Made by a program: the position numbers and the translations under genes
Part shown: piece by piece, positions 30,075-45,800 of the stretch
Numbering within the stretch: position 1 is the stretch's first letter
Layout of the letters: each line of letters starts with the position of its first letter
The notes under the pieces: model-generated
Seen by the model: the letters and a program-made list of their open reading frames with translations, nothing else
What the model was told of the DNA's origin: nothing
The model's database searches: none
Assembly (NCBI RefSeq): GCF_034259325.1
Contig: NZ_JAXIVS010000004.1
Location: forward strand, 248,001 to 312,000
Source of the DNA: Hyalangium ruber
GTDB taxonomy: Bacteria > Myxococcota > Myxococcia > Myxococcales > Myxococcaceae
Length of the DNA stretch: 64,000 nt
Direction: 5' to 3'

Positions 30075-33000
30075 CTACACGAGCTCGAGCGCCGCGAGGG
30101 CCACCGCGCGGAAGACAGGGCTGGCGACCAGCACCGCCCCCTCGTCCACGTCGCTCGGGTCTCCACCCCGCATGTCCGGATCCAAGCGGGCCAGTACCCG
30201 CCCCGCGGCCAGAGAGGCCGGGTATGCACGGAAGGCCGCCACCGCCGCCTCCTCCAGCCCCGGCACCGGACCCGGCCGCGAGAGCGCCACGCCCTCCGCG
30301 CCCAGGCTCAGTGCCAGCGCGCAGAGGTAGCCGAGCTCCACCGGGCCGAAGCACGTCAGCGCTCCGGCGCCCACCACCAGCTCGTCCGGGCGGGTGAGGT
30401 AGGCCTCCACACCGCCCACCGGATCCATCAGCACACGCACCTGGCCCGCGCCCAGCCCTTCCAACGTGGGACGGAGCGCGGAGTGCAGCCGGGGCAGGCT
30501 CTCGGCCGTCACCACCAGCGCTCCCGGGGGCGTGGGGTGAGCGAAGGGGCTCGGCGTCGGCAGCGGAAGCGCCTGTGCGGCGGGCGCGGCCAGCTCGCTG
30601 GAGGACAACGCCGCGGCGATGCCATCCACGCGGTTGGCGGCGTCGGTCCGGCCGAGCAACCGCAGCGCCTCGGCATAGAGCGTCCAGCCATCCACGTCGA
30701 CCCACTTCTTGCCGAGCAGCGTGGGCCAGAGGCGCGAGGCCAGCTTCGCTCCCTCGGGCGAGGGCGAGAGCCGCTCGGCCACCAGCCGCGTGGCCTCTGC
30801 CGAGAGGGCCTCGCGCGTCAGGAGGCGCTCGGCCAGCTTCGCCGCGAAGGGGATGAGCTGCGCGTCCAGGTAGCCGCGCAGGATGCTCTCCAGCGCATCA
30901 GGCTCCTCTGTCAGCCGCTCGCGCAGCTGCAGCGCCTCACCCGTGAGGCCGCGCGTATCCGCGAGCCTCGCGCGCCGCGCCAGCCGCTCCGGCGTCTCGG
31001 GCAGCGCCGCGAGCTGGGCCGCCGCGTCTCCCAGCCGGTCGAGCTTCTCGTAGGCATCCGCCAGCGGCTCCCTGTAGGGCTCCAGCGCCTCGGCGCCCGC
31101 CAGCGCCTCCAGACGCTCCGCCATGGCGGCGAAGGCCTCGCTGTCCTCCGCCTGGCCGTACAGCGCCAGCAGCTGCTTCACCGCGGGCAGGCACGTGGCC
31201 TCCTCCGCCAGCGCGTGCTCGAAGGACTCCCGCGCCCGTGCCCGCTGGGAGAGCGCGAGCAGCAGCTCGCCGCGCTCCAGGCGCAGGGCCACGCGCGCGC
31301 CCGTGTCCTCCTCGCCCTCGATGAGCTGGGCCAGGGTGTGCTCGGCGTCCTCGGAACGGCCCTCGGCGCGCTCCAGCTCCAGGCGCTCGCGCAGGAAGGC
31401 GGCGCGTCGCTCCGGCCAGCCCTCCGCCACCACGCCGAGCGCGGCGATGCGCTCCGCCGGGGACAGCGCCCGGACATGAACCAGCAGCGCCTCGGAGAGC
31501 TCCGACGGCATGCGCCCAAGCTCCGGCAGCAGGCGGTGGAGCCGCTCCGAGAAGTCCGGCGCGGAGGCCAGCGCCTCCAGCGCACGCAGGCGCAGCTCCA
31601 CGTGTCCCGAGGCCGTGTCGAGCACCTCGCCCCGCAGCGCCACGGCCAGCGCCGCGTCCCGCGCGGCGCTCAGCTCCGCCAGCCGCAGCAGCCCCCGCGC
31701 GTCCTTCTCCTCGCGCAGGCCCTCCGCCAGCCGGCTCACGTGCGCGGACTCCACCCCCGGCATCGCCGCGAGGGCCCAGAGCGCCTCGCGCACGCGCTCC
31801 GCGTCCCCCGCCTTCTCCGCCAGGGAGAGCGCCTCGTCCGCCCTGCCCTCCGCCATCGCGGGCCCGAAGCCCACGTCCCGGGCCCGTGCCACGGCCCCTA
31901 GCTTCAGGAAGCGCTCGGCCAGCTCGGAGGGCTTCAGTGCCTCGGGCGTCTCGGCCGCGATGCGCTCCACGACTTCCAGCGCCTCGGCCTTCTCCTCGGC
32001 CTGCTCCCAGAGGTCCGCGGCCTCCAGCAGCAGCGCGGGCTTCTCTCCGGCCGTCGCCGAGCGCACCGCCTGCAGCAGCGCCTTCGCCGCGCGCGGCGCG
32101 TCCTCCGACGCCTGGTACAGCCGCGCCATCAGCCGCAGCGTGGGTACCTCGGGCGCCACGGCAGTTGCGGCCTTCGCCGCCTTCAGCGCCTCGGGGATGC
32201 GGTCCGCGGACTCGAAGTCCCTCGCGGCGGCGACGAGCAGCTCCGCCTTCGCGGCGCCCTCGGTCAGCTCCGCGCGCGCCGCCCGCACCTCGGCGCGGCG
32301 AGAGGGCTCCTCCTCCAGCAGTGGCTCCAGCGCCTCCAGCGCCTCTGCGTAGCCCGCGCCTTGCGCCCCGCGCGCCACCACCAGCTCCAGCACCTCGCGG
32401 GCCCTCGCCTCCTGCTCCGAGGCCCGGGCCAGCGTGGCGATCTCCAGCCGCAGCACGGACGCCTCGTCCGCGTCCGCCGTCCGGTCCACCAGCCGCTGCA
32501 GCGCCTCCAGCAACGACTCGACCTCTCCTCGCTGGCGCAGCCCCTCCACGAGCGAGCGCAGCGCCGCCTCGTGCGCGGGGTCGGCCTCCGCGGCCCGCTG
32601 CCGCAGCACCCAGGCCTGCTTGGGGTCGGTCAGCTCCTCCTCGGCCAAGGCCGCGGCGGCCAGCAGCAGGTCGGCCGCGCGAGTTCCTCCGGCCGCGGTG
32701 GCGCCCGCCTCATACACCTCCATCAGCTCGGCGTGGCGGCTCAGGCCCCGCAGGCCTTCGACCGCCCGGTCGATGATCGAGCCGTCCGCGGGGCGCAGCC
32801 GCGTCAACGGCAGCAACGCTTCGATGGCCTCCTTCGGATCGTCGAAGAGGTCCGCGGCGCGGCGGTAGAGCACCTCCGCCGTCGCCCCATCCGCCTTGCG
32901 GGCGAGCTGGAGCGAAGCGCGGTAGAGCCCCGGCGTATTGCCCGTGCGCGCGTACGCCTCCGTGAGCAGCGACAGCGCCTCCTGGCCGCGCTCGCCATCG

Positions 33001-36000
33001 GGCTCCAACTGGACGACGGCCTCGAAGGCATCCGCCGCGTCCCGGTACGCGCCCGCCGCGAGCGAGGCGTGCCCCAGCCGCAGCCAGGTGCGCACCCGGA
33101 CGGGGACGGGCAGCTTCTCGCCCACCGCTACCAGGCGCCGGTCATACGGCTGCGCGGCGAGCGGACCTCCGCCCTCGGCGGCCAGCTCCGCGCGCGCGGC
33201 GAGCGCCTCCACGTCATCCCCCGCCTGGGCGAGGTACACATCGAAGGCCTCGGCGGCCAGCAGCGACTCGCCCGCCTCCAGGAGCAGCTCGGCGCGCTCG
33301 CGCAGCAGGGGCAGCGCCTCCGGAGCCGGCACGGCCTCGGCCCGCTGCGAGAGCAGGTCCGCCAGCCGGCGCACGTCTCCCGCCAGCCGCTCGCGCAGCA
33401 GCCCGAAGGCCTCGGCGTTGGACGGGTCTCTCTCGAAGGCCTGGTCCTCGCACAGCAGCGCGCGCTCGGTGGCGCCCGCCTCCCGGAACGCCCGGGCCGC
33501 GACGAGGTAGCTCTCGGCGGCCTCGCGCGAGGACTGGCGCTGGGCCCGGCGCAGCATCAGCGTCGCGAGGGACGGGTGGTCGCCCGTCTCGGTGAGGAAA
33601 TCACGGTGGCGCGTGAAGACGGCCTCGCGGAACGGATCGGCCTCCAGGAGGAGGGAGTCGAACTCCGCCGCATCCTCCGCGCGCCCCACCTCGTGGAGCA
33701 GGTCCGCCGCCTGAGCGGTGAGTTCCAGGTCATCCGGAGCAGCGGCGCGTGCGGCGAGCAGCGCGGCGGCGGCGGCGTCCGGACGTCCGGCCCGGTCCTG
33801 GTAGAGCGCGGCCGCGCGGCGCAACAGCAGCGCCCGGCGCTCGGTGTCCGTCTCCTCCGCGGCGCAGTCCTCGTACCAGGCGGCCAGCTCCGCCACCCGG
33901 CCTTCCCGCTCCAGCAGCTCGGCGAGCAGCGTCTCCGCCTCGGCCAGGGAGCGGTCTCGGCGCAGCGCGTCCCGGAGGAAGGTCTCCGCCTTGCCCGAGT
34001 CCGTCAGCACGCCCAGGTACAGCCGCGCCAGCCGCAGCAGCACGGCGCCCTGCTCCTTGGCCCCGGCATGCAGCGGCAGCGTGCGCTCCAGCCAGCGCGC
34101 CTGCGCGGCCGAATCGTCCCGACGCGTGGCGAGCGCCTCGCCCATCTGCGCCGTCTCGAGGTCCGCGGACAGCCGGAACGAGCGCTCCAGGGACTCCTCG
34201 GCCGCGGGCAGGTCCAGCTTCACGTCCCGCAGCAGCTCGGCGCGGCGGCGCTCGTGGGCGGCGGCGGCGGCGGGCTTGCCCTGGGACTCCAGGAGCTTTC
34301 GCAGCGCGGCGAGCGCCTCCAGGGCCTCGTCCATCCGGCCCGTGTCCTCGGCCAGCCGGGCCTCTTCATTATATGCGGCGAAGGCCGCGTCCGAGTCGCC
34401 CCGCTGAAGGCCGAGGGTGGCCACCCGGCGCAGCTCCACGAGCAGCTCCTGGGTGCGGCCCTGCTCCCGGTAGAGCGCGGCGAGCGACTGGCGCAGCGGC
34501 AGCGGCTCGGCGGCCATCTCCGCCGCGCGAGCGAGCAGAGCGGCAGCCACGTCCACATCCGCCAGTGAGGCGCGCGCCCGCTCCGAGAGCGCCACCAGGC
34601 GACGGGAGGTCTCCTCCGAGGGGGGCAGGGACTTCGCGTGCGTGACGAGCACCTCGAAGGCGGCGCGAGGCTCGTCCTTCTCCAGTAGCGCGGCGAGGCG
34701 CTGGACGGCCACCTCGTTGCGCGGGCGCTCCGTCGTCAGCCGGCGCCAGGCGGCCACCGCGCGCGGGCGGTCTCCGGCCTTCTCGGCCAGCTCTCCCAGG
34801 CGCAGCAGCGTGGCCTCGGCGCGCTCGGGCTCCTGGGCGAAGTCGACTGCCGAGGCGAGCGACTCCTGGAGGGGCAGCGCCTCCTTCACATCGCCGTGCA
34901 GGGCGAGCAGCTCGGCGAGGACCTCCAGGTCCTTGCCCCGCGCGGGCACGAGGGCATGGGCGCGGCGGACCAGCCGCAGCGCGCGCTCCGGGTCGGCGGC
35001 GGCGCGGGCGTGAGCGGCGCCCTCTCGCAAGAAGGCAGCGGCCTCAGTGGGCTCGGCGCGGTCGGCGGCGGACTCGAGGAGCTCGGCGGCCTCCAGCGGC
35101 TCGCCCTTGTCCACCACGAGCGAGACGAGGCGACGGCGCACCGCCAGGTCCTCGGGGGCGAGGCGCAAGGCTTCCCGCAGCGCGGCCTCGGCGGGCTCGG
35201 GCTCTTCGAGGCGATCGAGGTAGAGGCTCGCGAGCTCCGCGTACAGCGCGGCGGCGGCGGTGGGCGGAGCGTGGGGGGCCTCGGAGGCGAGGAGCGCGGC
35301 CAGACCCGCCCAGTCCTCCAGCTCCCGGAGCACGCGCTGAAGCGCGACGGTGGCACCGGGGTGCCGGGGTGAGAGCGTGAGCGCCGCATCCAGGCTGCGC
35401 GCGGCCTCCTCGCGCTGGTTGCGCTGCTCCAGCAGAGCGGCCCGGGCCAGCAGTGCCTCCACGCGGCGGGGCACGGGCCCCTGGCGTGAAGCCTCCGCGA
35501 GCGCCTCGGCCTCGGCCTCCGGCTGCCCATCCCTGCGGGCGAGCGTGGCCAGGGCGAAGAAGGCCTCGCAGCGCTCGACGGCGGGCAATTCCAGCGCGAC
35601 GGCGGCCCGCAGCGCCTCACGCGCCGAGCCCCGGTCATCCTTCTCCACCAGGGAGGTGGCGAGCACCAGCAGGCGCTCCCGGGCGCGCGCGCCCAGGCTG
35701 GCGTCAGCGGCGACGGCGCGACGCCACGCGGACAGTTCGGCCGCCTCATCCCCTGCCTCGCGGGCCAGCTCGGCCAGGGCGAGCAGCAGCGGCGCGGGCC
35801 GGCGCGAGAGCCGAGCCGCCTCGGAGTAGTCATCCCGGGCGGCATCGGAGCGACCCGCGGCGCGGTGGAGCGTGGCGCGGCGGGCGAGCAGCTCGGCGCG
35901 GGACTCACCCTCGGCGGCGGAGATCTGCGTGCCCAGCAGCGTCAGGCGCTCGGATTCCTGCTCCGGAGTGCCCGTGCCGGGCGGAGGCAACAGCTCCAGC

Positions 36001-39000
36001 AGGGACTGCGCGGCCCACAGGTCGCGAGGCTCCTCGGCGAGCAGGGCCCTCAGGGCCGTGGCGGCCTCCGTGGGACGGCCCAGCGTCAGGGCCAGCTCCG
36101 CCAGCTCGCGCCGGGCGTTGCGCTGGGCCTCGCCGGAGAGGCGCGGCCACAGCTCGGTCAGCAGATCCGCCAGGGCCTCGCGCGCGCCGGCCTTGCGGTG
36201 CAGCGCGGCCAGCTCGAGCTGGGTATCGAGGTCCGACGGAGCCAGGGCGCTGTACTGCGCCAACAGGCGGCGGGCGGCGTCCGTGCGTCCCGCGCGCACC
36301 GCGGCGGTGGCGGCCTTGCGCGTGAGCGAGAGCCGCTCCTCCTCGCGCGGGGCGTCCGCGTCGGTGGGAGGCAGGGCCAGCACCGCCTCGAGGTCCTCCA
36401 AGGCGCCGCGCGGGTCGGTGGGCAGACGCAGCTCACCCCGGCGCATGCGGGCCGGAGCGAAGGTGGCGTCACGCTCCAGGGCCTCGGCGAGGTAGGTCTC
36501 CTCGCGGCTGGTACCCGCGGCCAGGAGCGAGGCGCGGTAGAGCAACCGGGAGCCCACCCGCACATCGGAGACGAGGAGGGCCTTGCGCGCGTACAGCTTG
36601 GCGGCCTCCAGCTTCTCGCCACGCTCCAGCTCCAGCTCGGCGAGCGTGTCCAGCACCTCGCCGGCCATGGGGCCTTGAGGGTCCGCCTCGAGCGCGGAGG
36701 ACAGGCGCGCCAGGGCAACGGGCTTCTCGCCGCGCTCCAGGAGCAACCGGGCGCTCTTGAGGAAGAGGGGCGAGGCCTCTCCGGGGCGGTCGGCGGCGAG
36801 GAGCGCCTGGGCGCGGGTGCCCCAGAGTTCGGCCAGCTCCCTGCCCTCGCCCAGCTCGGTGTAGAGGGCCTCCAGCCGGGCGGCGAGCGCGTCATCCAGG
36901 CGGCGCAGCGGGAAGGCCTGCGCGTAGGCGGCGACAGCACCCTCGCGGTCTCCCAACAGCTCGCACGCTCGGCCCAGGCGGGCGCGGATGTCGGCCAGCC
37001 GCTCGGGCGCGGCGGTGCGCGGCAGCGAGGACAGCAGCGTCTCCAGCGCGCGCCGGGCATGCTCCGGCCGCTCGCAGCGCAGCGAGAGGTCCGCCAGGTC
37101 CAGCAGCACGGCGGGGTCCGGCGCCAGACGCGCGGCCTTCTCCATGGCCACCAGCGCCTCGCCGATGCGACCCAGCCGCGCCTCCAGCACTCCGGCCAGC
37201 TCGCGCAGCGCTGCGGAGGCCAGTCGCTTGTCGCCCTGCGCCTCGGCCACGCGCGCGCGGTCCTCCAGCGCGGCGGCGAGCCCCGCCATGTCCGAGCGCT
37301 TGCGCTGAAGGGCGCACAGCTCGCCCAGCGCCGGCAAGTCATCCGGCTCGGCCTTGAGCACCTCCTGCAGCGCGTGGACGGCCAGGTCGAGGTCGAAGGT
37401 CAAGTCCCGCGCGGCCACGGCGAGGCGGCGGTACTTCTGGGCGCGCTCCCGAGGCTCGGGCGTCAGGCGCGCGAGCGCCGAGAGGCAACGGGTGAGCTGG
37501 CCTCCATCGCGGCGCGCCTCGGCCAGGGCGAGCATGGCCTCCAGCGCCGCCTTGTTGTCGGGGTCCGCCTCCAGCGCGGAGGTGAGGAGCCGCTCGGCCT
37601 TCTCCGGCAACTGGAGCCGTCCCCGGTACAGCTCTCCGGCCTCGGCCCAGAGCGCGGCGCGCTTGCCGGGCTCCTCGTACACGGCGGCGGCCTTCTCCAG
37701 CGCGTCGGCCAGTTCCTGCGCGCGGCCGGTGCCCCGGAAGTACGGAATCAGCTCCTCCAGGGCCACCACATCGCGCGAGTCGAGCGCGAGCGCGGCCTCC
37801 AGGTGCTCGCGGGCCCGCGCGGGATCTCCCAGCTTCGTGCGCGACAGCCGGGCCATGGCGTGGTGGCTGGCGTGCGCGGCCTTGCGCACCCCTTCCGAGC
37901 GCGGCGCGGGGCCCGCCAGCTCCAGGGCCTGCTGGTAGCCGGCGAGTGCCTCCTGCACCTTGCCGAGGCGCTCGGCCACGCGCGCGGTACAGAAGAGGGG
38001 CTCGGCGTCCCCGGGCAGCAGCGTCACCGCCTCGCGGTAACGCAGGAGCGCATTGTCCGGCTGCTGGAGGCCCTCTTCCCACACATGGCCGGCGAGCAGG
38101 TTGGCCTGCCCCACCCGGTCCAGTTCGTGCCGGGCCAGGGCCACCTCGCGCAGGCGGTCCAGCGCCTTGAGGGCGCGCAGGTGCTCACCGCCACGGAAAC
38201 ACAGCTCGCCCAGCAGCAGCAGCGCGTCCGGTTGATCCGGCGCCAGCCGCAGCGCGGCCTCGCAGTGCAGCCGGGCACCGGCGATGTCGTCCTCGGTCTG
38301 GGCGCACAGCCGCGCGAGGTGAACGTGGGCGTCGGCGGCCTCGGCCGGATCCCTCGCCAGCGCGGCCAGACGGCGGTAGGCGCGCACGGCGCCAGCGCGG
38401 TCCTTGGCCTGGTCCGAGGCGCGGGCCAGGGCCTTGAGCGAAGGCAGGTGGTCCGGCTTGAGGCCCAGCAGCTCGTGGAGCGCCTTCACCGCCACCTGGG
38501 GCGCGGTGTCGCGCGAGCAGCGCGCGGCGGCCTCGGCGGCGTAGAAGGCGGCGGCATCCTCGGAGGTGCGGCGCGACAGGGCGCTCAGGGCCAGGTAGCG
38601 CTCCGCGGCCCGGGCACCCTCGCCCCGGCGCTCGCGCACCACGGCCTCGCCCCAGAGGGCGGCGGGGCTCTTCTCGCGGCGGCGCAGCAGCGTGGCCGCC
38701 ACATCCAGCGCCATGTCATGCGCCTGCGGGTCCGCCACGAGCAGGGACAGCAGCCTCTCGGCGGCGAAGGGGTGCGCGTCCTGCGCATCTCCGGACTGGA
38801 GGTAGGCCTCGCGCGCGTCGGCGAGCCGGCCCTGGGCGATCAGCGCCTCGGCCTCGGCGAAGGCGCGCGCCCCCTCGAGCGTCATCAACAGCTCGTCATC
38901 CGGCGCGGCCGGAGGAGGCAGCCCCCCGGCGGCGAAGCGCAGGCGCAGCCCCTTGCTGGACACCTCGGCGGCGGCCAGGCGCGCCTGGTCCAGCTCCGGC

Positions 39001-39608
39001 ATCTTGAAGCCCCGCGTCACCGCCGCCAGCCGGCACAGCTCCGGCAGCACGCGCGAGGTGAAGCCCGTGGCGCCCTGCGTCTCCACCTCGGGCAGCAGCG
39101 CCAGCGCCTCCACCGCGGAGGCGAGGATTCCCGGCACCTGCACCGAGGGCGTGGGAGAGAAGCCATAGAGCCGCACGTCGTAGACGTAGAGGGCCAGCTT
39201 CTCGCCGTCCCCATCGAAGGCGACCTTGAAGGTGACGGGGGTGCGCTCCGGCCCCTGCAGCCGGGCCTGGCCTTCCAGGTAGCCCGGGCGGAAGTGCAGC
39301 TTCAGCTCCTCCAGGCCCGAGAGCCGCCCGGCCAGCTCCGCCACCTTGCGGGCCACCAGGTCCGCGTCGACGGTGAGTTCCAGGAAGCCGAACAGCAGCT
39401 TCTTGCGCTGGTAGCGCGAGGCGCCCGCGCTCACGTTGAAGGGGAAGGTGACGTCCGGAATCTGCAGCGCGAAGTCGGCGATGCTCAGCCCAGGCGCGAG
39501 CGGCAGCGGCGGAAACCCCACGAAGGCGCGGCGGTCCAGCAGCCGGAGCTCGGGGGAAGCGGCGCGCGCGTCAGGCGCGGACTTGGGGGAGTCACTTTCG
39601 GTGGCCAT
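30075..39608 (-). CDS. Giant TPR-repeat protein (about 3177 residues)
   Basis: About 3177 residues from ATG 39608 (GTG 39632 is an alternative; neither has a clear Shine-Dalgarno). Residues about 20-240 are a non-repeat domain with strands (ADFALQIPDVTFPFNVSAGASRYQRKKLLFGFLELTV). From about 250 nearly to the end the chain is helix-turn-helix repeats of about 34 residues with the TPR pattern (AEALIAQGRLADAREAYLQSG; LKPDHLPSLKALARASDQAKDRAGAVRAYRRLA), interrupted by degenerate stretches. The last 250 residues lose the repeat and look globular (LVVTAESLPRLHSALRPTLEGLGAGQVRVL). No signal peptide. Such giant TPR proteins are seen in myxobacteria; function unknown, presumably a scaffold. First gene of a run with lipoprotein, queC and dipeptidase. 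Confidence 0.85.
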   Translation of the reverse strand: MATESDSPKSAPDARAASPELRLLDRRAFVGFPPLPLAPGLSIADFALQIPDVTFPFNVSAGASRYQRKKLLFGFLELTVDADLVARKVAELAGRLSGLEELKLHFRPGYLEGQARLQGPERTPVTFKVAFDGDGEKLALYVYDVRLYGFSPTPSVQVPGILASAVEALALLPEVETQGATGFTSRVLPELCRLAAVTRGFKMPELDQARLAAAEVSSKGLRLRFAAGGLPPPAAPDDELLMTLEGARAFAEAEALIAQGRLADAREAYLQSGDAQDAHPFAAERLLSLLVADPQAHDMALDVAATLLRRREKSPAALWGEAVVRERRGEGARAAERYLALSALSRRTSEDAAAFYAAEAAARCSRDTAPQVAVKALHELLGLKPDHLPSLKALARASDQAKDRAGAVRAYRRLAALARDPAEAADAHVHLARLCAQTEDDIAGARLHCEAALRLAPDQPDALLLLGELCFRGGEHLRALKALDRLREVALARHELDRVGQANLLAGHVWEEGLQQPDNALLRYREAVTLLPGDAEPLFCTARVAERLGKVQEALAGYQQALELAGPAPRSEGVRKAAHASHHAMARLSRTKLGDPARAREHLEAALALDSRDVVALEELIPYFRGTGRAQELADALEKAAAVYEEPGKRAALWAEAGELYRGRLQLPEKAERLLTSALEADPDNKAALEAMLALAEARRDGGQLTRCLSALARLTPEPRERAQKYRRLAVAARDLTFDLDLAVHALQEVLKAEPDDLPALGELCALQRKRSDMAGLAAALEDRARVAEAQGDKRLASAALRELAGVLEARLGRIGEALVAMEKAARLAPDPAVLLDLADLSLRCERPEHARRALETLLSSLPRTAAPERLADIRARLGRACELLGDREGAVAAYAQAFPLRRLDDALAARLEALYTELGEGRELAELWGTRAQALLAADRPGEASPLFLKSARLLLERGEKPVALARLSSALEADPQGPMAGEVLDTLAELELERGEKLEAAKLYARKALLVSDVRVGSRLLYRASLLAAGTSREETYLAEALERDATFAPARMRRGELRLPTDPRGALEDLEAVLALPPTDADAPREEERLSLTRKAATAAVRAGRTDAARRLLAQYSALAPSDLDTQLELAALHRKAGAREALADLLTELWPRLSGEAQRNARRELAELALTLGRPTEAATALRALLAEEPRDLWAAQSLLELLPPPGTGTPEQESERLTLLGTQISAAEGESRAELLARRATLHRAAGRSDAARDDYSEAARLSRRPAPLLLALAELAREAGDEAAELSAWRRAVAADASLGARARERLLVLATSLVEKDDRGSAREALRAAVALELPAVERCEAFFALATLARRDGQPEAEAEALAEASRQGPVPRRVEALLARAALLEQRNQREEAARSLDAALTLSPRHPGATVALQRVLRELEDWAGLAALLASEAPHAPPTAAAALYAELASLYLDRLEEPEPAEAALREALRLAPEDLAVRRRLVSLVVDKGEPLEAAELLESAADRAEPTEAAAFLREGAAHARAAADPERALRLVRRAHALVPARGKDLEVLAELLALHGDVKEALPLQESLASAVDFAQEPERAEATLLRLGELAEKAGDRPRAVAAWRRLTTERPRNEVAVQRLAALLEKDEPRAAFEVLVTHAKSLPPSEETSRRLVALSERARASLADVDVAAALLARAAEMAAEPLPLRQSLAALYREQGRTQELLVELRRVATLGLQRGDSDAAFAAYNEEARLAEDTGRMDEALEALAALRKLLESQGKPAAAAAHERRRAELLRDVKLDLPAAEESLERSFRLSADLETAQMGEALATRRDDSAAQARWLERTLPLHAGAKEQGAVLLRLARLYLGVLTDSGKAETFLRDALRRDRSLAEAETLLAELLEREGRVAELAAWYEDCAAEETDTERRALLLRRAAALYQDRAGRPDAAAAALLAARAAAPDDLELTAQAADLLHEVGRAEDAAEFDSLLLEADPFREAVFTRHRDFLTETGDHPSLATLMLRRAQRQSSREAAESYLVAARAFREAGATERALLCEDQAFERDPSNAEAFGLLRERLAGDVRRLADLLSQRAEAVPAPEALPLLRERAELLLEAGESLLAAEAFDVYLAQAGDDVEALAARAELAAEGGGPLAAQPYDRRLVAVGEKLPVPVRVRTWLRLGHASLAAGAYRDAADAFEAVVQLEPDGERGQEALSLLTEAYARTGNTPGLYRASLQLARKADGATAEVLYRRAADLFDDPKEAIEALLPLTRLRPADGSIIDRAVEGLRGLSRHAELMEVYEAGATAAGGTRAADLLLAAAALAEEELTDPKQAWVLRQRAAEADPAHEAALRSLVEGLRQRGEVESLLEALQRLVDRTADADEASVLRLEIATLARASEQEARAREVLELVVARGAQGAGYAEALEALEPLLEEEPSRRAEVRAARAELTEGAAKAELLVAAARDFESADRIPEALKAAKAATAVAPEVPTLRLMARLYQASEDAPRAAKALLQAVRSATAGEKPALLLEAADLWEQAEEKAEALEVVERIAAETPEALKPSELAERFLKLGAVARARDVGFGPAMAEGRADEALSLAEKAGDAERVREALWALAAMPGVESAHVSRLAEGLREEKDARGLLRLAELSAARDAALAVALRGEVLDTASGHVELRLRALEALASAPDFSERLHRLLPELGRMPSELSEALLVHVRALSPAERIAALGVVAEGWPERRAAFLRERLELERAEGRSEDAEHTLAQLIEGEEDTGARVALRLERGELLLALSQRARARESFEHALAEEATCLPAVKQLLALYGQAEDSEAFAAMAERLEALAGAEALEPYREPLADAYEKLDRLGDAAAQLAALPETPERLARRARLADTRGLTGEALQLRERLTEEPDALESILRGYLDAQLIPFAAKLAERLLTREALSAEATRLVAERLSPSPEGAKLASRLWPTLLGKKWVDVDGWTLYAEALRLLGRTDAANRVDGIAAALSSSELAAPAAQALPLPTPSPFAHPTPPGALVVTAESLPRLHSALRPTLEGLGAGQVRVLMDPVGGVEAYLTRPDELVVGAGALTCFGPVELGYLCALALSLGAEGVALSRPGPVPGLEEAAVAAFRAYPASLAAGRVLARLDPDMRGGDPSDVDEGAVLVASPVFRAVALAALELV

Positions 39609-39775
39609 CGAGGAGGGGGCAGAGGGTATCACGGGGGCTAAGTCCTCGAAATTTTTACCGTTCCCCCGCCAGGAGGGCTTGCGGCAAGGCGGCCGCCCTC
39701 ACCGGGAGTCGCACCCGCGCGCCCCCTGGAGATGGACCATGCGCGGCGCGGCATTCTCGGCCAAGATGGCCGGCG

Positions 39776-42397
39776 GTGCTGGCCCCCGACTCGCTCGTCC
39801 TCGAAGGCCGTTTTCGGGTCATCCGCCCGCTGGGTTCCGGCGGCATGGGCGAGGTGTACCTGGGTGAGCAGGTATCCCTGGGTCGCAAGGTGGCGATCAA
39901 GGTGCTGCACCACGATCTGCACATGCAGGCGGGCATGGTGGAGCGCTTCAAGCGCGAAGCACGCCTGCTCTCGGCGGTGGAGCACCCGGCGGTGGTGCGC
40001 ATCATCGACTTCGGAGAGTCCGGGGACGCGGCGTGCCTGGTGATGGAGCTGGTGGAAGGGGTGAGCCTCCACGAGGCCCTGCAGACGGGCCCCCTGGCGC
40101 CCGCGCGAGCGCTCACGGTGCTGCACCAGCTGGCCGAGGGCCTGGCGGCCATCCACGACCAGGGCATCATCCACCGCGACATCAAACCGGAGAACGTCTT
40201 CCTCACGCGCGGCCCGCGAGGCGAGCAGGCGCGGCTGTTGGACTTCGGCATCGCGCGGCTGGTGGAGCCGGACGCCGACAGCGCGGTGAGCCAGGTGGGC
40301 GTGGTGCTGGGGACGCCCGAGTACCTGTCGCCCGAGCAGGCCGTGGGCGCGCGGGTGGATGTGCGCAGTGACCTCTACTGTCTGGGGGTGCTGGCCTACC
40401 GCATCCTCTCGGGGCGGCTGCCCTTCGATGGGCCCACCGCGCGCCAGTTCATCGCCCAGCACGCCAACGCCGCGCCCCTGCCGCTGGATCGCGCCGCGCC
40501 CACGCTGGCCACCCAGCCCACCCTGGTGGCGCTGGTGATGCGGCTCTTGGAGAAGGAGCCCGCCAACCGGTTCCAGACCGCGCATGCACTGGCGGAGGCG
40601 CTGACCGCCGTGGCCGCGATGCCGCTGCCGGCCCACACCGCGCCACCCGGAGTGCTGGTGCCCGCCACCACCCCTCCTCTCTCCAGCGGCACGGCGGCCT
40701 TCGGCGCGGCGGCGGCGCCCGCCCTGAGCCCGGAGCCCATCTCCCACCGCACTGCCGCCTTCGGCGCGGCACCGCCCGTCCCTTCCGGGGAGAGCGGCGG
40801 CCCCGAGCCTCGCGGCGCCACGCAGGTGCTGCCCCCCACGAGCAGTGGCACGGCCGCCTTCGGTGTGGCACCTCCTCCCGGCGCTTCGATTCCGCCGCCC
40901 ACAGGCAGCGGCACGGCCGCCTTCGGTGTGGCGCATCCTCCCGGCGCCTCGATTCCGCCGCCCACGGGCAGTGGCACGGCGGTCTTTGGCGCCGCCGCGC
41001 CTCCGGCCCGCTCGGGGTTGACGGGCCTCTTCGGAAGCTCCTCGGTGGGGGTCGCGGGCAGCGGCGCGCTCGCGGGCAAGCCGCAGAACCTCACGCTGAT
41101 GCTCACCAGCATCCAGGGCTTCGCCGAGCTCACCAGCCGGCAGACGCGGGAGGAGCACCTGCGGATGCTGGAGACCTACGAGCAGCTCCTGCTGCCACTG
41201 GTGCGTGAGTACTCGGGCAAGCTCGTGCAGCAGCGCGGGGACTCGCTGCTCGCGGTCTTCGAGTCGCCCACGGGCGCGGTGCTCTGCGGCATGGGGATGC
41301 AGGACCGGCTGTGGCGCCACAACCAGGCCCTGCCGCCCGAAGCCCAGCTCCACGTGCGCACCTGCCTCCACGCGGGCGAGGTGCTGCTGGCGCGCGACTC
41401 GGTGCTCGGCGAGCCGATGGAGGTGGTGAAGGCCACGGAGCAGGTGGCGCTGGCGGGGGAAGTCACCTTCACGGAGTCGGTGAACCTGGCGCGCAACCGC
41501 GCCGAGGTGGTGGCCGAGCCGTGCGGCACCATTCCCCTGCCCGGCCGAGGCGATCCGCTCCAGCTCTACCGCAGCAAGCGCGCCGCCGAGGGGCCTCCCT
41601 TCGGGGGCCGGGACATGGGGAGCGCGCCCACGGAGAAGCGCCCCGTGGTTGCCTGGAAGCCCTCGCTGGGGGAGCTGAGCCAGAAGCTCTCGGGGCTCTC
41701 CCGTGGCCCACGCGGCCGGGTGGGAGCAGCCCTCGCCGGCGGCCTGCTGCTCCTGGGCGGCGGAGCGCTCTGGCTCTGGAGCCAGAAGCCGGAGGTGCAG
41801 GCGCGGCGCCTGGTGAACGCGGACAAGCCAGCGGAGGCCCTCAAGCGCCTCGAGGCGATACCGGCGGAGGAGCGCAAGGCCCCAGCCCTGCGACAGGTGC
41901 GCGCCCTGGCGCTGCACGCGCTGAAGCGGCACGACGAGGAGTACGAAGCGCTGCTAGCGCTGGACGCGGAGGCGCGCAAGGACGTGGAGGCGCGAGTGCT
42001 GGACGGGCTCGCGGAGGACTTCGGCGAGAGCGAGGGGAGCAAGGGGCTGCGCAAGCTGCTGGGCGCCCTCCCGAAGGAGCAGCTGCACGCGCACTTCGAG
42101 GAGCTGGCGGAGGGTGGCTACTCGCCCAAGCAGTGGGGCGCGCTGCGCTACCTGGAGGCGGCCCAGGACACGCAGGGGCTGGACCTGGTGGAGCTCTACA
42201 CGACGGCGCTGGCGTCCGAGGACTGCGGCGTGCGCGCCAAGGCAGCGAGGAGACTCGGAGCGCTGGGAGGCACGGGGGCGGTGTCCGCGCTCCAGAAGCT
42301 GGCCGAGCAGCCCCGGGACAAGCAGCCGCTCGGCACGAAGAACTGCGGTCAGGACGAGGCGGAAGCGGCGCTCAACGCGCTGAAGAAGTCGAACTGA
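39776..42397 (+). CDS. Ser/Thr protein kinase fused to a degenerate nucleotidyl-cyclase-like domain
   Basis: 873 residues. Kinase domain 10-275: GSGGMGEVY (20-28), Lys42 in VAIKVL, HRDIKPEN with Asp135, DFG 156-158, all intact, so an active Hanks-type kinase is expected. Residues 290-430 are a Pro/Gly/Ala linker with 21-residue repeats. Residues about 438-580 resemble a class III adenylate/guanylate cyclase domain, but the first metal-binding Asp is Ser445 (TSIQGF), while the second, Asp489 (GDSLLAVF), remains. A transmembrane helix follows at 650-668, then a helical TPR/HEAT-like tail of about 200 residues, likely periplasmic. GTG 39776 is the only usable start in frame. Divergent from the giant TPR gene. 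Confidence 0.9.
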   Translation: MLAPDSLVLEGRFRVIRPLGSGGMGEVYLGEQVSLGRKVAIKVLHHDLHMQAGMVERFKREARLLSAVEHPAVVRIIDFGESGDAACLVMELVEGVSLHEALQTGPLAPARALTVLHQLAEGLAAIHDQGIIHRDIKPENVFLTRGPRGEQARLLDFGIARLVEPDADSAVSQVGVVLGTPEYLSPEQAVGARVDVRSDLYCLGVLAYRILSGRLPFDGPTARQFIAQHANAAPLPLDRAAPTLATQPTLVALVMRLLEKEPANRFQTAHALAEALTAVAAMPLPAHTAPPGVLVPATTPPLSSGTAAFGAAAAPALSPEPISHRTAAFGAAPPVPSGESGGPEPRGATQVLPPTSSGTAAFGVAPPPGASIPPPTGSGTAAFGVAHPPGASIPPPTGSGTAVFGAAAPPARSGLTGLFGSSSVGVAGSGALAGKPQNLTLMLTSIQGFAELTSRQTREEHLRMLETYEQLLLPLVREYSGKLVQQRGDSLLAVFESPTGAVLCGMGMQDRLWRHNQALPPEAQLHVRTCLHAGEVLLARDSVLGEPMEVVKATEQVALAGEVTFTESVNLARNRAEVVAEPCGTIPLPGRGDPLQLYRSKRAAEGPPFGGRDMGSAPTEKRPVVAWKPSLGELSQKLSGLSRGPRGRVGAALAGGLLLLGGGALWLWSQKPEVQARRLVNADKPAEALKRLEAIPAEERKAPALRQVRALALHALKRHDEEYEALLALDAEARKDVEARVLDGLAEDFGESEGSKGLRKLLGALPKEQLHAHFEELAEGGYSPKQWGALRYLEAAQDTQGLDLVELYTTALASEDCGVRAKAARRLGALGGTGAVSALQKLAEQPRDKQPLGTKNCGQDEAEAALNALKKSN
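40841..40990 (+). repeat. 63-bp tandem repeat coding a Pro/Gly linker
   Basis: About 2.4 copies with a 63-bp period (starts near 40841, 40904 and 40967), coding SGTAAFGVAPPPGASIPPPTG-type units inside the kinase linker. The high identity between copies marks recent expansion. Length variation between strains would be expected. Confidence 0.8.
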
Positions 42398-42415: not shown

Positions 42416-42829
42416 TCAGTCATCGCGCTTCGCGTGGCCCTTCTTCTTGCCACGGCCGTGGCCGCGACCGTCATCATCATCATCGTCCCAGTCGTCGTGG
42501 TGGTCGTTGCGGCCCTTCACCTTCTCGTTCACCTTGAGCAGCTCGCGCGAGTACGCGTGGTAGTCGAGGTGGACATGGCCTCGGGCACCCGAGGCGAAGG
42601 CGGCGAACTTCACCTTCCACACGTCATTGCCCGTGCGGTGGGCATCCTTGAGTTCGCACTGGTAGCCGCGAGACCGGCAGTGGTTGAAGCCGAGGTTCAC
42701 CGCCTCGTCGTAGCTCATCGCCACGGGGCGGGAAGGCGGAGGCGGAGGCGCCGGACGGCGGGGCGGGCGGGAATGGACCACGCAACCCTGAGCGAGCAGC
42801 AACACACCGAGGAGCATGAGGATTCGCAT
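42416..42829 (-). CDS. Small lipoprotein with Asp/His/Lys-rich tail
   Basis: 137 residues. Lipobox LLAQGC (Cys16), start ATG 42829 after AAGGAGGGGG. A Pro-rich linker is followed by a compact domain of about 75 residues with two cysteines (FNHCRSRGYQCELKDA). The C-terminal 30 residues are HDDWDDDDDDGRGHGRGKKKGHAKRDD-like: first acidic with His, then basic. The acidic/His stretch could bind divalent metal; this is inference. Family not recognised. Convergent with the kinase gene. Confidence 0.75.
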   Translation of the reverse strand: MRILMLLGVLLLAQGCVVHSRPPRRPAPPPPPSRPVAMSYDEAVNLGFNHCRSRGYQCELKDAHRTGNDVWKVKFAAFASGARGHVHLDYHAYSRELLKVNEKVKGRNDHHDDWDDDDDDGRGHGRGKKKGHAKRDD

Positions 42830-42899: not shown

Positions 42900-45800
42900 T
42901 CAGCCCTCCCACGTGGACAGCATCGAGCGCACCCGCGTGTACCTGGCGAGCAGCTTCTCGCGGTGGGCGCTGAGCAGCACCATGAAGCCGACCACGAGCA
43001 GCCCCAGCAGCGACAGGAAGGCGGCGCCCACGCGGTGGTCGCGCATGCCGAAGCGCACCAGGTTTGCGACGATGCACGTCACCAGGAACGCGGTGCCCAG
43101 GTACACATAGGAGCGGATGCGCAGCGCGATGCCCGCCATCACTCCCAGCAAACACACGAGCACGCAGAGCAGCATTCCCCCAGCGTCGCTGAACATGAGG
43201 GGCTTCCACGCTCCGGCGACGTAGATGACGGTCACCGCGCAGGCGCGCATCCACGCCACGGTGTCCGGGGCCAGCGAGTCGCGGAAGATGCGCAGCAGCA
43301 CCAACAGGGAGAGGCCCGCGGGGATGACGTAGTACTGCGGCTCACCGGCGCCGATGCCCGCCCAGAGGACGAGCAGGGCCGCGTTGAAGGCCACGACAGA
43401 GGCCACGGACGCCAGCCCCCGGCGCGAGGGATGCGTGGCGAGCGCGGCGAAGTGGGCGGCGTGGCCGGCGAGCAGCGCAGCGGCGTAGGCGGGCTGGTCC
43501 CACGGCGCGGTCAGCAAACCGGCCAGGGGGAAGAGGAAGGCGCCCAACAGCGCGGGCCGGCGGAAGGCGGGCAGCCCCGAGCTCTCGCGCTGCACGAAGA
43601 CGTAGAGGCCGGAGAAGAACGCGCCGCCTCCGAGCGCCACGAGGCTGTCCGTGACGCTCAGGCCCTCGACGCCCATGCCGAGCAGCCGCGCGCCGAGGTA
43701 GCCCAGCGCGACGGCCACCTGGGCGTAGTACACGGAGAGCGCGTCCTGCCGAGTCACCGCGCGGCGGACCAGCGCCACCACCAGCACCCCGAGGCCCACC
43801 ACCGCGACGAGCGCCTCTCGCAGGGCGCCTCGGGAGCCATCCACCACCAGGACTCCCAGGAACACCTCGAGCAGCGCGACCGTCGCGAGGAAGTGCCCCA
43901 CGCCCCGGCGCACCTTCTCTCCGGCGAAGGAGAGCGCCACGGTGGCGAGCAGCGCGGTGGCGGCGCCCAGGTGCGGGACGATGAACTCCTTGCCACGACC
44001 GGACGAGAACGTCGCGCCGAGGAACATCACCAGAACATGCACGGAGACGAGCGTGGCGAGCCAACCCACCACCTCGCGCGAGCGCCGCCGATACACCACG
44101 GCCCACGCGGCCCCCGTGGCCAGCGCGAAGCTCAGCGGCGCGCTCACGTGCCGCACGCTCTGCAGGCCCGCGAGGGCCAGGAGCGAGAGCATCCACCCAC
44201 CGTGGTGCAGCGCCCGGCCCACGCTGAACTCCCGAGCATCCAGCACGGTGCCCACCAGGCAGAGCGCGAGCCCCGTCCCTCCGACGACGACGGGGAGCCA
44301 CACGGGCGACACCGTGGCCACGAGCACCCCACCCAGCAGCGCGGTGGCGACATAGGCCATCCACTCCTCGCGGCTCACCATGAGCACGAGCGCGGCCAGT
44401 CCCGCGGGCACCGCCACCACCAGCGGCAGCACGCCGGGGCCTCGATCGAACAGGAAGTACGCCAGCAGGCCTCCGAGGGTGAGCACCCCCGCGCCCCAGA
44501 AGGGCTCGCTCCAGGTGTCCTCCAGGCTCGGGAGCACCTTGGCCGCCGCGGACGAGAGGGCGCGCTGCACGCGGCCGGACTGGCACACGGCGGACAGGAG
44601 CGCGGCGGCGAGCGCCACTCCGGCGAAGGCCAGCGCTGCCAAAGGCCGTGCCTCCATGAAGGAGTACAGCTCCGTCTCCCCGAGCGACACGAGCGCCAGC
44701 ACCAGCACAGAGGCGGTGAGCAGCCAGCGCAAGGAGAGGAGGAACGCGGCCACGAACAGCACCCCGGCCATCCCGGCGAGCGCTCCCGGAGTCGGAGCCC
44801 CGATCACGGACACACCGGTGAGCGCCAGCGCGCCCAGGGTGGCCAGGGGACGCAGCCCGCTGTCCGGAGCGCAGCGGAAGAAGGCCGCCAGCCCCGAGGG
44901 GCGGTGGTACTCGAGCACGCCCAGCGCCAGCAGCACGCCCGCCGCCACAGGCCGGGCCTCGGGGATGAAGGCGAGCAGCAGCGTGGCGAGCCCCACGCGC
45001 ACCGAGGGGCGCCGGCCCGGCATGAGCGCCAACGACATTATAAGGAGGAGCCGCGAGGCAATCCCAGCCTCCACCGCCAGCATGCCCAGGCCCACCAGCA
45101 GGAGCGTGCCCTGCATCCACTCGGAGAGCCGCTGTGCCAGCTTCGCCTCCGCCGCCGGGCCGAGCAGCAGCGAGCGCGCGGCGGGCAGGTGCTCCACGGC
45201 GCGAACCACCAGGAGCGCCAGCAGCGGCAGGGCCGGCGCGAAGACCGGAACGGCCCCGCCGAGGAGCATGGTCCCTGCTGTGAACAGCGTGCCGAGCGCC
45301 GCGAAGACCGGCTTGCGGCTGGCCCGCATCCACAGCAGCGGCAGGACCACGGTCCCCGCGAGCAGCAGATCCACGGGTGCATGCTCCCAGGTCAGCAGGG
45401 CCACCGCGAGCACGCCCACCGAGGAGAGGATGGCCGCGAGGGCGAAGCGCCCGCCCCCGGCCAGCACGGCCGCCACCGCGCGCCGCTCCTCCAGGAGGGC
45501 CAGGACGCTCAGGAAGGCCGCCAGCCCCAGCAGGGCCACCGGCGACGGCCCCAAGCCCACGGTGGCATAGCCCGCGGCGACGAGGACACTGAGGGACGGA
45601 GGCACCGCCCGGGCGGTGAGCAGCGCGGCGAGGGCCGCACAGAGCAACAGCCCCATGTGCGGCTCACGGGAGTCCACCGCCAGCGCCGGAGCGAGCGCGA
45701 GGAGCAGGGCCACGAAGCCCGCGGTGAGCGTGCTCGGGCCACGCCCCCAGCGCACGGTGGCGAGCGAAGCCCCCAGGGACCACAGGAGGATGAGGCCCAT

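Follow-up and report, generated by a model that had tools for sequence, protein, structure and literature searches.

A kinase-fused cyclase-like domain in a Pkn2-type receptor of Hyalangium ruber reads as a pseudo-cyclase across its family

What does a cyclase-like domain do when it is built into a receptor kinase: does it still make cyclic nucleotides, or does it serve the kinase in another way? This question is raised by a gene in a 64,000-nucleotide stretch of the Hyalangium ruber genome (NCBI RefSeq assembly GCF_034259325.1, contig NZ_JAXIVS010000004.1, positions 248,001 to 312,000 of the forward strand; hereafter the window). The product of the gene is a receptor kinase of the type of Myxococcus xanthus Pkn2, and a first-pass annotation made from the sequence alone had noted that its class III cyclase-like domain carries Ser in place of the first metal-binding Asp, suggesting a probable pseudo-cyclase with a regulatory or nucleotide-sensing role. 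Comparison with relatives indicates that this replacement was the last of several, that cyclase residues have been lost throughout the kinase-fused family and that the remaining domain is under purifying selection. With moderate confidence, we read it as a non-catalytic dimerizing or relay module.

The region from the cyclase-like domain to the protein end was used as a query against 145 genomes of the order, at least 121 of which matched with E 1e-5 or below. After the removal of duplicates, the close matches listed gave 66 "core" fused proteins, the window protein included, a set that may lack some weak fused forms. The outlying proteins L047 and L049 stand outside this core, and four rows were kept out of the counts, namely the duplicates L103 and L112, L039 (the same gene as L011) and L012 (a fragment of the L040 gene). 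A further set of 20 rows comprises stand-alone relatives, i.e., frames without a detected kinase (404-502 amino acids (aa) in 17 of them), and takes in the degraded rows L095, two of L051 and L056, the last with His at the Asn site. Trees of 53, 57 and 83 rows were built, the first two from chosen representatives and the third without the L051 and L095 rows. The features on which the argument depends are as follows.

39776..42397, + strand: whole gene, Pkn2-type receptor Ser/Thr kinase of 873 aa; open reading frame (ORF) with a GTG start
39815..40594, + strand: Ser/Thr kinase domain, aa 14-273, core complete (PF00069, E 3.9e-47)
41084..41554, + strand: class III cyclase-like domain, aa 437-593 (PF00211, E 7e-7; family profile to Ma1120, E 1.3e-27)
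41108..41110, + strand: codon AGC, Ser445 at the first metal site, Me1 (family alignment and Ma1120 match)
41228..41230, + strand: Gln485 at the base-recognizing Lys site (Q in 66/66 core fused proteins, K in 20/20 stand-alone)
41240..41242, + strand: Asp489 at the second metal site, Me2, kept (D in 66/66 core fused)
41384..41386, + strand: Leu537, where the stand-alone relatives have Arg (L in 66/66 fused, R in 20/20 stand-alone)
41420..41422, + strand: Glu549 at the ribose-Asn site (E in 63 and Q in 3 of 66; N in 18/20 stand-alone)
41432..41434, + strand: Ala553 at the transition-state Arg site (A/S/T/G in 65/66 core fused, R in one; R in 19/20 stand-alone)
41720..41776, + strand: transmembrane helix, aa 649-667 (top 19-residue hydropathy stretch)

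The GTG start is the earliest start codon of its open stretch. The kinase core is complete, as the first-pass annotation had it, with a glycine loop from aa 20, K42, E61, D135 of the HRD motif and D156 of the DFG motif, and the protein has the Pkn2-type layout of an N-terminal kinase followed by a cyclase-like domain placed between a low-complexity linker and a single membrane helix. By profile, this domain belongs to the class III cyclases: PF00211 (Guanylate_cyc) scores 29.4 bits on the window protein, above the curated cut-off of 21.9, and the family profile, made from 29 members, matches the solved cyclase Ma1120 (4wp9) over profile columns 9-170. The Asp residues of the TDI and GD motifs of Ma1120 occupy the Me1 and Me2 columns, and the family alignment agrees with this match in placing Ser445 at Me1 and Asp489 at Me2. 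Since the placement rests on the alignment and the Ma1120 profile match, it is independent of any structure model, and the reported exchange at the first metal site, with Asp489 kept, stands.

The exchange at Me1 is one of several. Neither the metal Asp pair (S445, D489) nor the Lys/Asp/Asn/Arg set (Q485, S542, E549, A553) of an active class III cyclase is complete in the window protein, in which the D542 site is Ser. The positions lost besides Me1 (Q485, L537, S542, E549 and A553) are conserved in 18-20 of the 20 stand-alone relatives, so that the case for a pseudo-cyclase is stronger than originally claimed. The alignment of the 66 core rows, with D in 57, S in 8 and T in 1 at Me1 and with A in 42, S in 11, T in 11, G in 1 and R in 1 (L032) at the Arg site, indicates a family-wide loss of cyclase residues in the kinase-fused domains.

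In what order were these residues lost? With the six catalytic columns excluded from its input, the 83-row tree has a single change at the Lys site and two each at the Me1, Asn and Arg sites; the Ser/Thr rows on the side of the window, eight in number, group as one clade in the domain tree (support 100/98), apart from L032 of genome G121. Loss of the metal Asp, as mapped on these trees, came later than the other losses, occurred twice and was the last of several. Ser is therefore not conserved among the homologues, the majority of which have Asp at this position; such homologues had been named as potentially refuting a pseudo-cyclase if they also had cyclase activity, and those found here lack further catalytic residues. 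A sequencing error at codon 445, the other objection raised at the outset, was rejected, as Ser or Thr occurs there in 9 of the 66 core rows, i.e., in the window and eight other assemblies. L032 itself combines a separate Ser at Me1 with Arg at the Arg site, a sign of a different loss order or of a regain.

The nearest relatives of the fused domain are the stand-alone cyclases. Among their 20 rows, Me1 is D in 18, Me2 is D in 18, and K, N and R are present in 20, 18 and 19, respectively; all six catalytic sites are present in 16. Among the matches listed, all 67 genomes with the fused form (the 66 core genomes and G049) have a stand-alone relative at E 1e-50 or below, as do 22 of the remaining 78. 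Residues were examined in 10 of these 67 genomes, nine of which have a complete set, and in G084 both metal Asp residues are missing. The tail of the stand-alone proteins is distantly related to the Pkn2-type outer domain (profile E 1.9e-8 over 112 columns; 0.4 for an unrelated control). The H. ruber genome, a 10.77 Mb assembly, has 30 Guanylate_cyc family matches, that of the window protein included, and the closest match there to the stand-alone query, L102 (G000:C5:361526-362815), is its own stand-alone cyclase with a full catalytic set. G084 has a fused kinase and a cyclase-less kinase (L048) in tandem; its stand-alone row without the metal Asp residues is L095.

Another important question is whether the altered domain is maintained. 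The ratio of nonsynonymous to synonymous substitution rates (dN/dS), taken from 14 pairs hand-picked as near relatives, ranged from 0.04 to 0.38 in the cyclase-like domain, with a median of about 0.19, mostly in between the values of the kinase (0.035-0.18) and of the outer domain (0.18-0.80) in the same pairs; the four Ser/Thr-lineage pairs gave 0.18-0.38. The pseudo-domain is under purifying selection. Its alignment of 172 columns contains 33 that are invariant across the 66 core sequences, 54 that are conserved and identical in the fused and stand-alone groups, and 11 that are conserved (85% or more) in both groups with different letters, including K485Q, R537L and N549E. Fixation or near fixation of Q485, L537 and E549 at formerly catalytic positions argues against drift, and in sequence terms the old active site has been remodeled and its new form fixed.

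Related receptors also occur without the domain. The outer domain alone, used as a query, matched in 87 of the 145 genomes, many of the hits lying in frames, mostly of 540-700 aa, that lack the cyclase part; 20 distinct loci of this kind, with a kinase, a helix and an outer domain, were compared, and their outer domain is plainly the same as the fused one (profile E 8.6e-58). In the kinase tree, the main cyclase-bearing clade (31 rows; Shimodaira-Hasegawa-like approximate likelihood ratio test (SH-aLRT) 83) lies apart from these cyclase-less kinases, and L047 and L049 fall outside it on long branches. L049 (L049:842-4381, from G039, another family of the order) is a separate kinase-cyclase fusion with its full catalytic set intact. 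The genomic neighborhood is informative as well.

30075..39632, - strand: gene for a 3185-aa TPR protein, head-to-head neighbor of the fused kinase (divergent in 11 of the 14 fused loci looked at)

The TPR gene lies within 0.25 kb of the kinase in 9 of these 11 loci and at about 1.9 and 5.7 kb in the other two, and no TPR gene was present in the stretches examined at the remaining three fused loci (G084, G049 and G121), of which G049 and G121 are near a contig end. The same arrangement recurs at 2 of the 16 stretches with only a cyclase-less kinase (G122 and G086), so that the same locus occurs with and without the cyclase part. Because the receptor kinase exists without it in 20 relatives, two of them at the same locus, the cyclase-like part is accessory. 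The TPR protein is a candidate partner or substrate of the kinase. On the other side of the gene, a small ORF at 42416-42829 on the - strand, with a lipoprotein-like start and without a Pfam match, is downstream and convergent in 8 of the 14 fused loci, and 42900-48320 encodes a very hydrophobic protein of 1806 aa, without a Pfam match at E 0.001, that lies downstream in 7 of the 14 in the stretches examined.

Beyond the membrane helix and before the cyclase-like domain, two further parts of the protein bear on its function.

41789..42394, + strand: outer domain, aa 672-873, predicted all-helical, with Cys817 and Cys857 (AlphaFold2 (AF2) confidence score (pLDDT) of 84 from a 3-sequence alignment)
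40691..41035, + strand: linker array with six TxxFG motifs (T306, T326, T359, T380, T401 and T416; motif count and shuffles)

A fold search of the PDB with the outer-domain model returned nothing at E 0.001 or below, the top match being an artificial alpha-repeat protein (E 0.017), and Pfam gave a sub-threshold HEAT hint at aa 786-848. Both Cys817 and Cys857 are kept in all 87 kinase proteins (67 fused and 20 without the cyclase part), a pattern that fits what is probably a periplasmic disulfide. Six TxxFG motifs in the window linker compare with a shuffled mean of 0.09 and a maximum of 2 (2000 shuffles); the 67 fused linkers (66 core and L047) together contain 197, against a shuffled mean of 5.3 and a maximum of 13 (500 shuffles), with at least one copy in 64. 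No TxxFG was found anywhere in the 20 distinct cyclase-less kinases (21 rows, one a duplicate), and a single match occurred in 1 of the 20 stand-alone proteins (L056). A DNA pattern for GTA[AV]FG had 7 places in the H. ruber genome, 4 of them in this gene, and the reversed-pattern control had 1. Because the cyclase-bearing proteins are mostly one clade, the association of TxxFG with the cyclase part may reflect shared ancestry alone. The Thr residues of the array may be natural candidate phosphorylation sites.

How does this protein compare with known systems? It lies within the clade of fused kinases in both the kinase and domain trees. Eight homologues from one genus (g19) have an 853-residue open frame with 830 residues from the aligned start, a length equal to that of Pkn2. 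The window protein differs from Pkn2 in its 873 aa and in the Ser at the first metal site. The available part of the 2005 report on Pkn2 (PMC1262709) describes a kinase, an Ala/Ser/Pro/Thr-rich stretch, an adenylate/guanylate cyclase-like (AC/GC-like) domain, a membrane segment and nearly 200 outer residues, the same domain order as in the window protein; it reports kinase activity, with autophosphorylation in the region following the kinase domain, terms the nucleotide specificity of the AC/GC-like domain unclear and leaves its activity open. A conserved Glu is given there at the base site, whereas the alignment here has Gln in 66/66. Pkn2 phosphorylates beta-lactamase, and its disruption lowers the myxospore yield, according to the text available of PMC2877116; HU is listed as a Pkn2 substrate in the part available of PMC6213207. 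No statement that the Pkn2 domain is inactive was found in the available text of the open-licence PMC papers covered, which did not include the primary Pkn2 papers. Thus, the Pkn2 architecture with its cyclase-like domain is already known, as reported in 2005, and the family-wide residue loss, the complete stand-alone relatives, the purifying selection, the cyclase-less kinases and the TxxFG array are new. Ma1120, which shares the domain family with the window protein, has the Me1 Asp, Lys, Me2 Asp and Arg, with Ala in the Asn column, whereas the window protein keeps only Me2. The TOMM kinase/cyclase fusion (TIGR03903), which judging by its name has both kinds of domain as well, was considered and rejected, as it scores 155 bits against a cut-off of 705.75 and its best stretch covers only the kinase part (aa 36-283).

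The basis seen here consists of the domain order, the family-wide catalytic loss, the purifying selection and the co-occurrence of TxxFG. Class III cyclase domains function as dimers, and a non-catalytic dimerizing or relay module is the reading of the sequence comparison to which we give roughly an even chance. The outer helical domain, probably disulfide-bonded, would sense a periplasmic signal, and the single membrane helix would relay it inward; the membrane-adjacent pseudo-cyclase, presumably making no cyclic nucleotide, would pair with a second copy and so set the distance or orientation of two kinase domains for trans-autophosphorylation, after which the kinase may phosphorylate the Thr residues of the TxxFG array and its targets. 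The position between kinase and helix reported in the first-pass annotation holds, and the regulatory role proposed with it is plausible for a domain under purifying selection. Several observations weigh against this reading. The AF2 model of the cyclase-like domain, computed from three sequences, has a pLDDT of 34.8, too low for its fold or dimer surface to be read. One core row, L032, keeps Arg at the Arg site, and three of the 67 fused linkers have no TxxFG. Unusual residues do not prevent activity in some class III cyclases, e.g., Gln at the Lys site in Rv0386, and the Ala of Ma1120 in the Asn column means that Asn is not essential in every class III member and that its loss alone is no proof of inactivity. 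Finally, a pure scaffold does not explain why 57 of the 66 domains keep both metal Asp residues; this retention may mean little, given that those 57 rows share 52 invariant columns out of 172.

Could the domain nevertheless bind or convert a nucleotide? An active cyclase with unusual residues would agree with the tolerance just mentioned and with the activity left open in 2005 in the part available of PMC1262709, but the window protein has lost all four of Lys, Asn, Arg and Me1; the residues suggest an absence of cyclase activity, and we give an active enzyme almost no chance. A pseudo-cyclase that senses ATP, GTP or a cyclic nucleotide, the other role suggested at first, could draw on the one metal Asp left and on the conserved cyclase-like sequence. 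Those base, ribose and phosphate contacts that can be placed are replaced, however, and with the basic residues that hold the triphosphate gone and an acid in place (63 of 66 proteins have Glu at the Asn site), the pattern counts against a nucleotide bound in the usual manner, making this suggestion very unlikely. The opposite view, a decaying and functionless relic, would account for the stepwise catalytic loss and for relatives without the domain; it was rejected on dN/dS, is difficult to reconcile with the 33 invariant columns in 66 sequences and is extremely unlikely.

Two further explanations give the domain a partner. It could be a docking platform for the TxxFG motifs of its own linker or for a partner, e.g., the TPR protein, with Thr phosphorylation controlling release. 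The restriction of TxxFG to cyclase-bearing kinases, with none in the 20 cyclase-less ones, and the head-to-head TPR gene are in line with this idea, but the binding itself is only predicted, common ancestry may explain the association, three fused linkers lack a copy and the stand-alone protein L056 has one, the cyclase domain is missing at two TPR-flanked loci, and no TPR gene was seen at three fused loci, of which two are close to a contig end; we regard docking as rather unlikely. Alternatively, the fused domain could be one side of a heterodimeric cyclase, lending its metal Asp pair to a stand-alone cyclase that brings Lys, Asp, Asn and Arg, so that the kinase would control cAMP or cGMP (cyclic AMP or GMP) production, a capacity lost with Asp445 in the window lineage. 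The stand-alone relatives fit this scheme through their presence in every genome with the fused form and in 22 of the 78 others, among the matches listed, and through their distantly Pkn2-like tail. As to R537, which is invariant in the stand-alone form and has a spacing like that of the C1-type Arg, it is Leu in all 66 fused proteins. The text available of PMC3591389 names R574 of the alpha subunit of soluble guanylate cyclase (sGC), and it describes an enzyme in which the metal Asp residues come from one subunit and Arg and Lys from the other, homodimers lacking some of these being inactive. Human sGC alpha/beta thus shows that two cyclase domains can share out one catalytic set between them, and the retention of the metal Asp pair in 57 of 66 fused domains, with Lys and Asn gone in all and Arg in 65, resembles this division; yet the sGC pair is active, whereas any active partner of the fused domain would be a putative one, and the alpha-side-like Arg is lost as well. 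Moreover, the co-occurrence follows ancestry, the stand-alone protein of G084 has neither metal Asp (residues having been examined in 10 of the 67 genomes), and without Me1 the scheme could not work in the window lineage. A C1-like heterodimer was accordingly lowered as the leading explanation on account of Leu537 and of the unremarkable retention of the metal Asp residues, and we consider it very unlikely. The same low expectation applies to its extension into a split receptor, in which the kinase-borne pseudo-cyclase and a complete cyclase would form one live active site gated by the kinase and the metal Asp loss on the Hyalangium side would have left the former co-catalyst as an inhibitor or scaffold only.

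Among bacterial receptor kinases, Pkn2 was described early. Its cyclase-like domain reads as a pseudo-enzyme across the family, and the same genomes also encode a sister enzyme that is complete. Natural versions range from receptors with the domain, through some with a further degraded one, to receptors without it, of which two sit at the same locus. Should pairing of the domain with the stand-alone cyclase prove true, one receptor would join kinase signaling to cyclic-nucleotide signaling. This is a clean, testable case within a known family and not a new kind of system, and through it the role of a bacterial pseudo-cyclase becomes directly testable in the laboratory organism M. xanthus.

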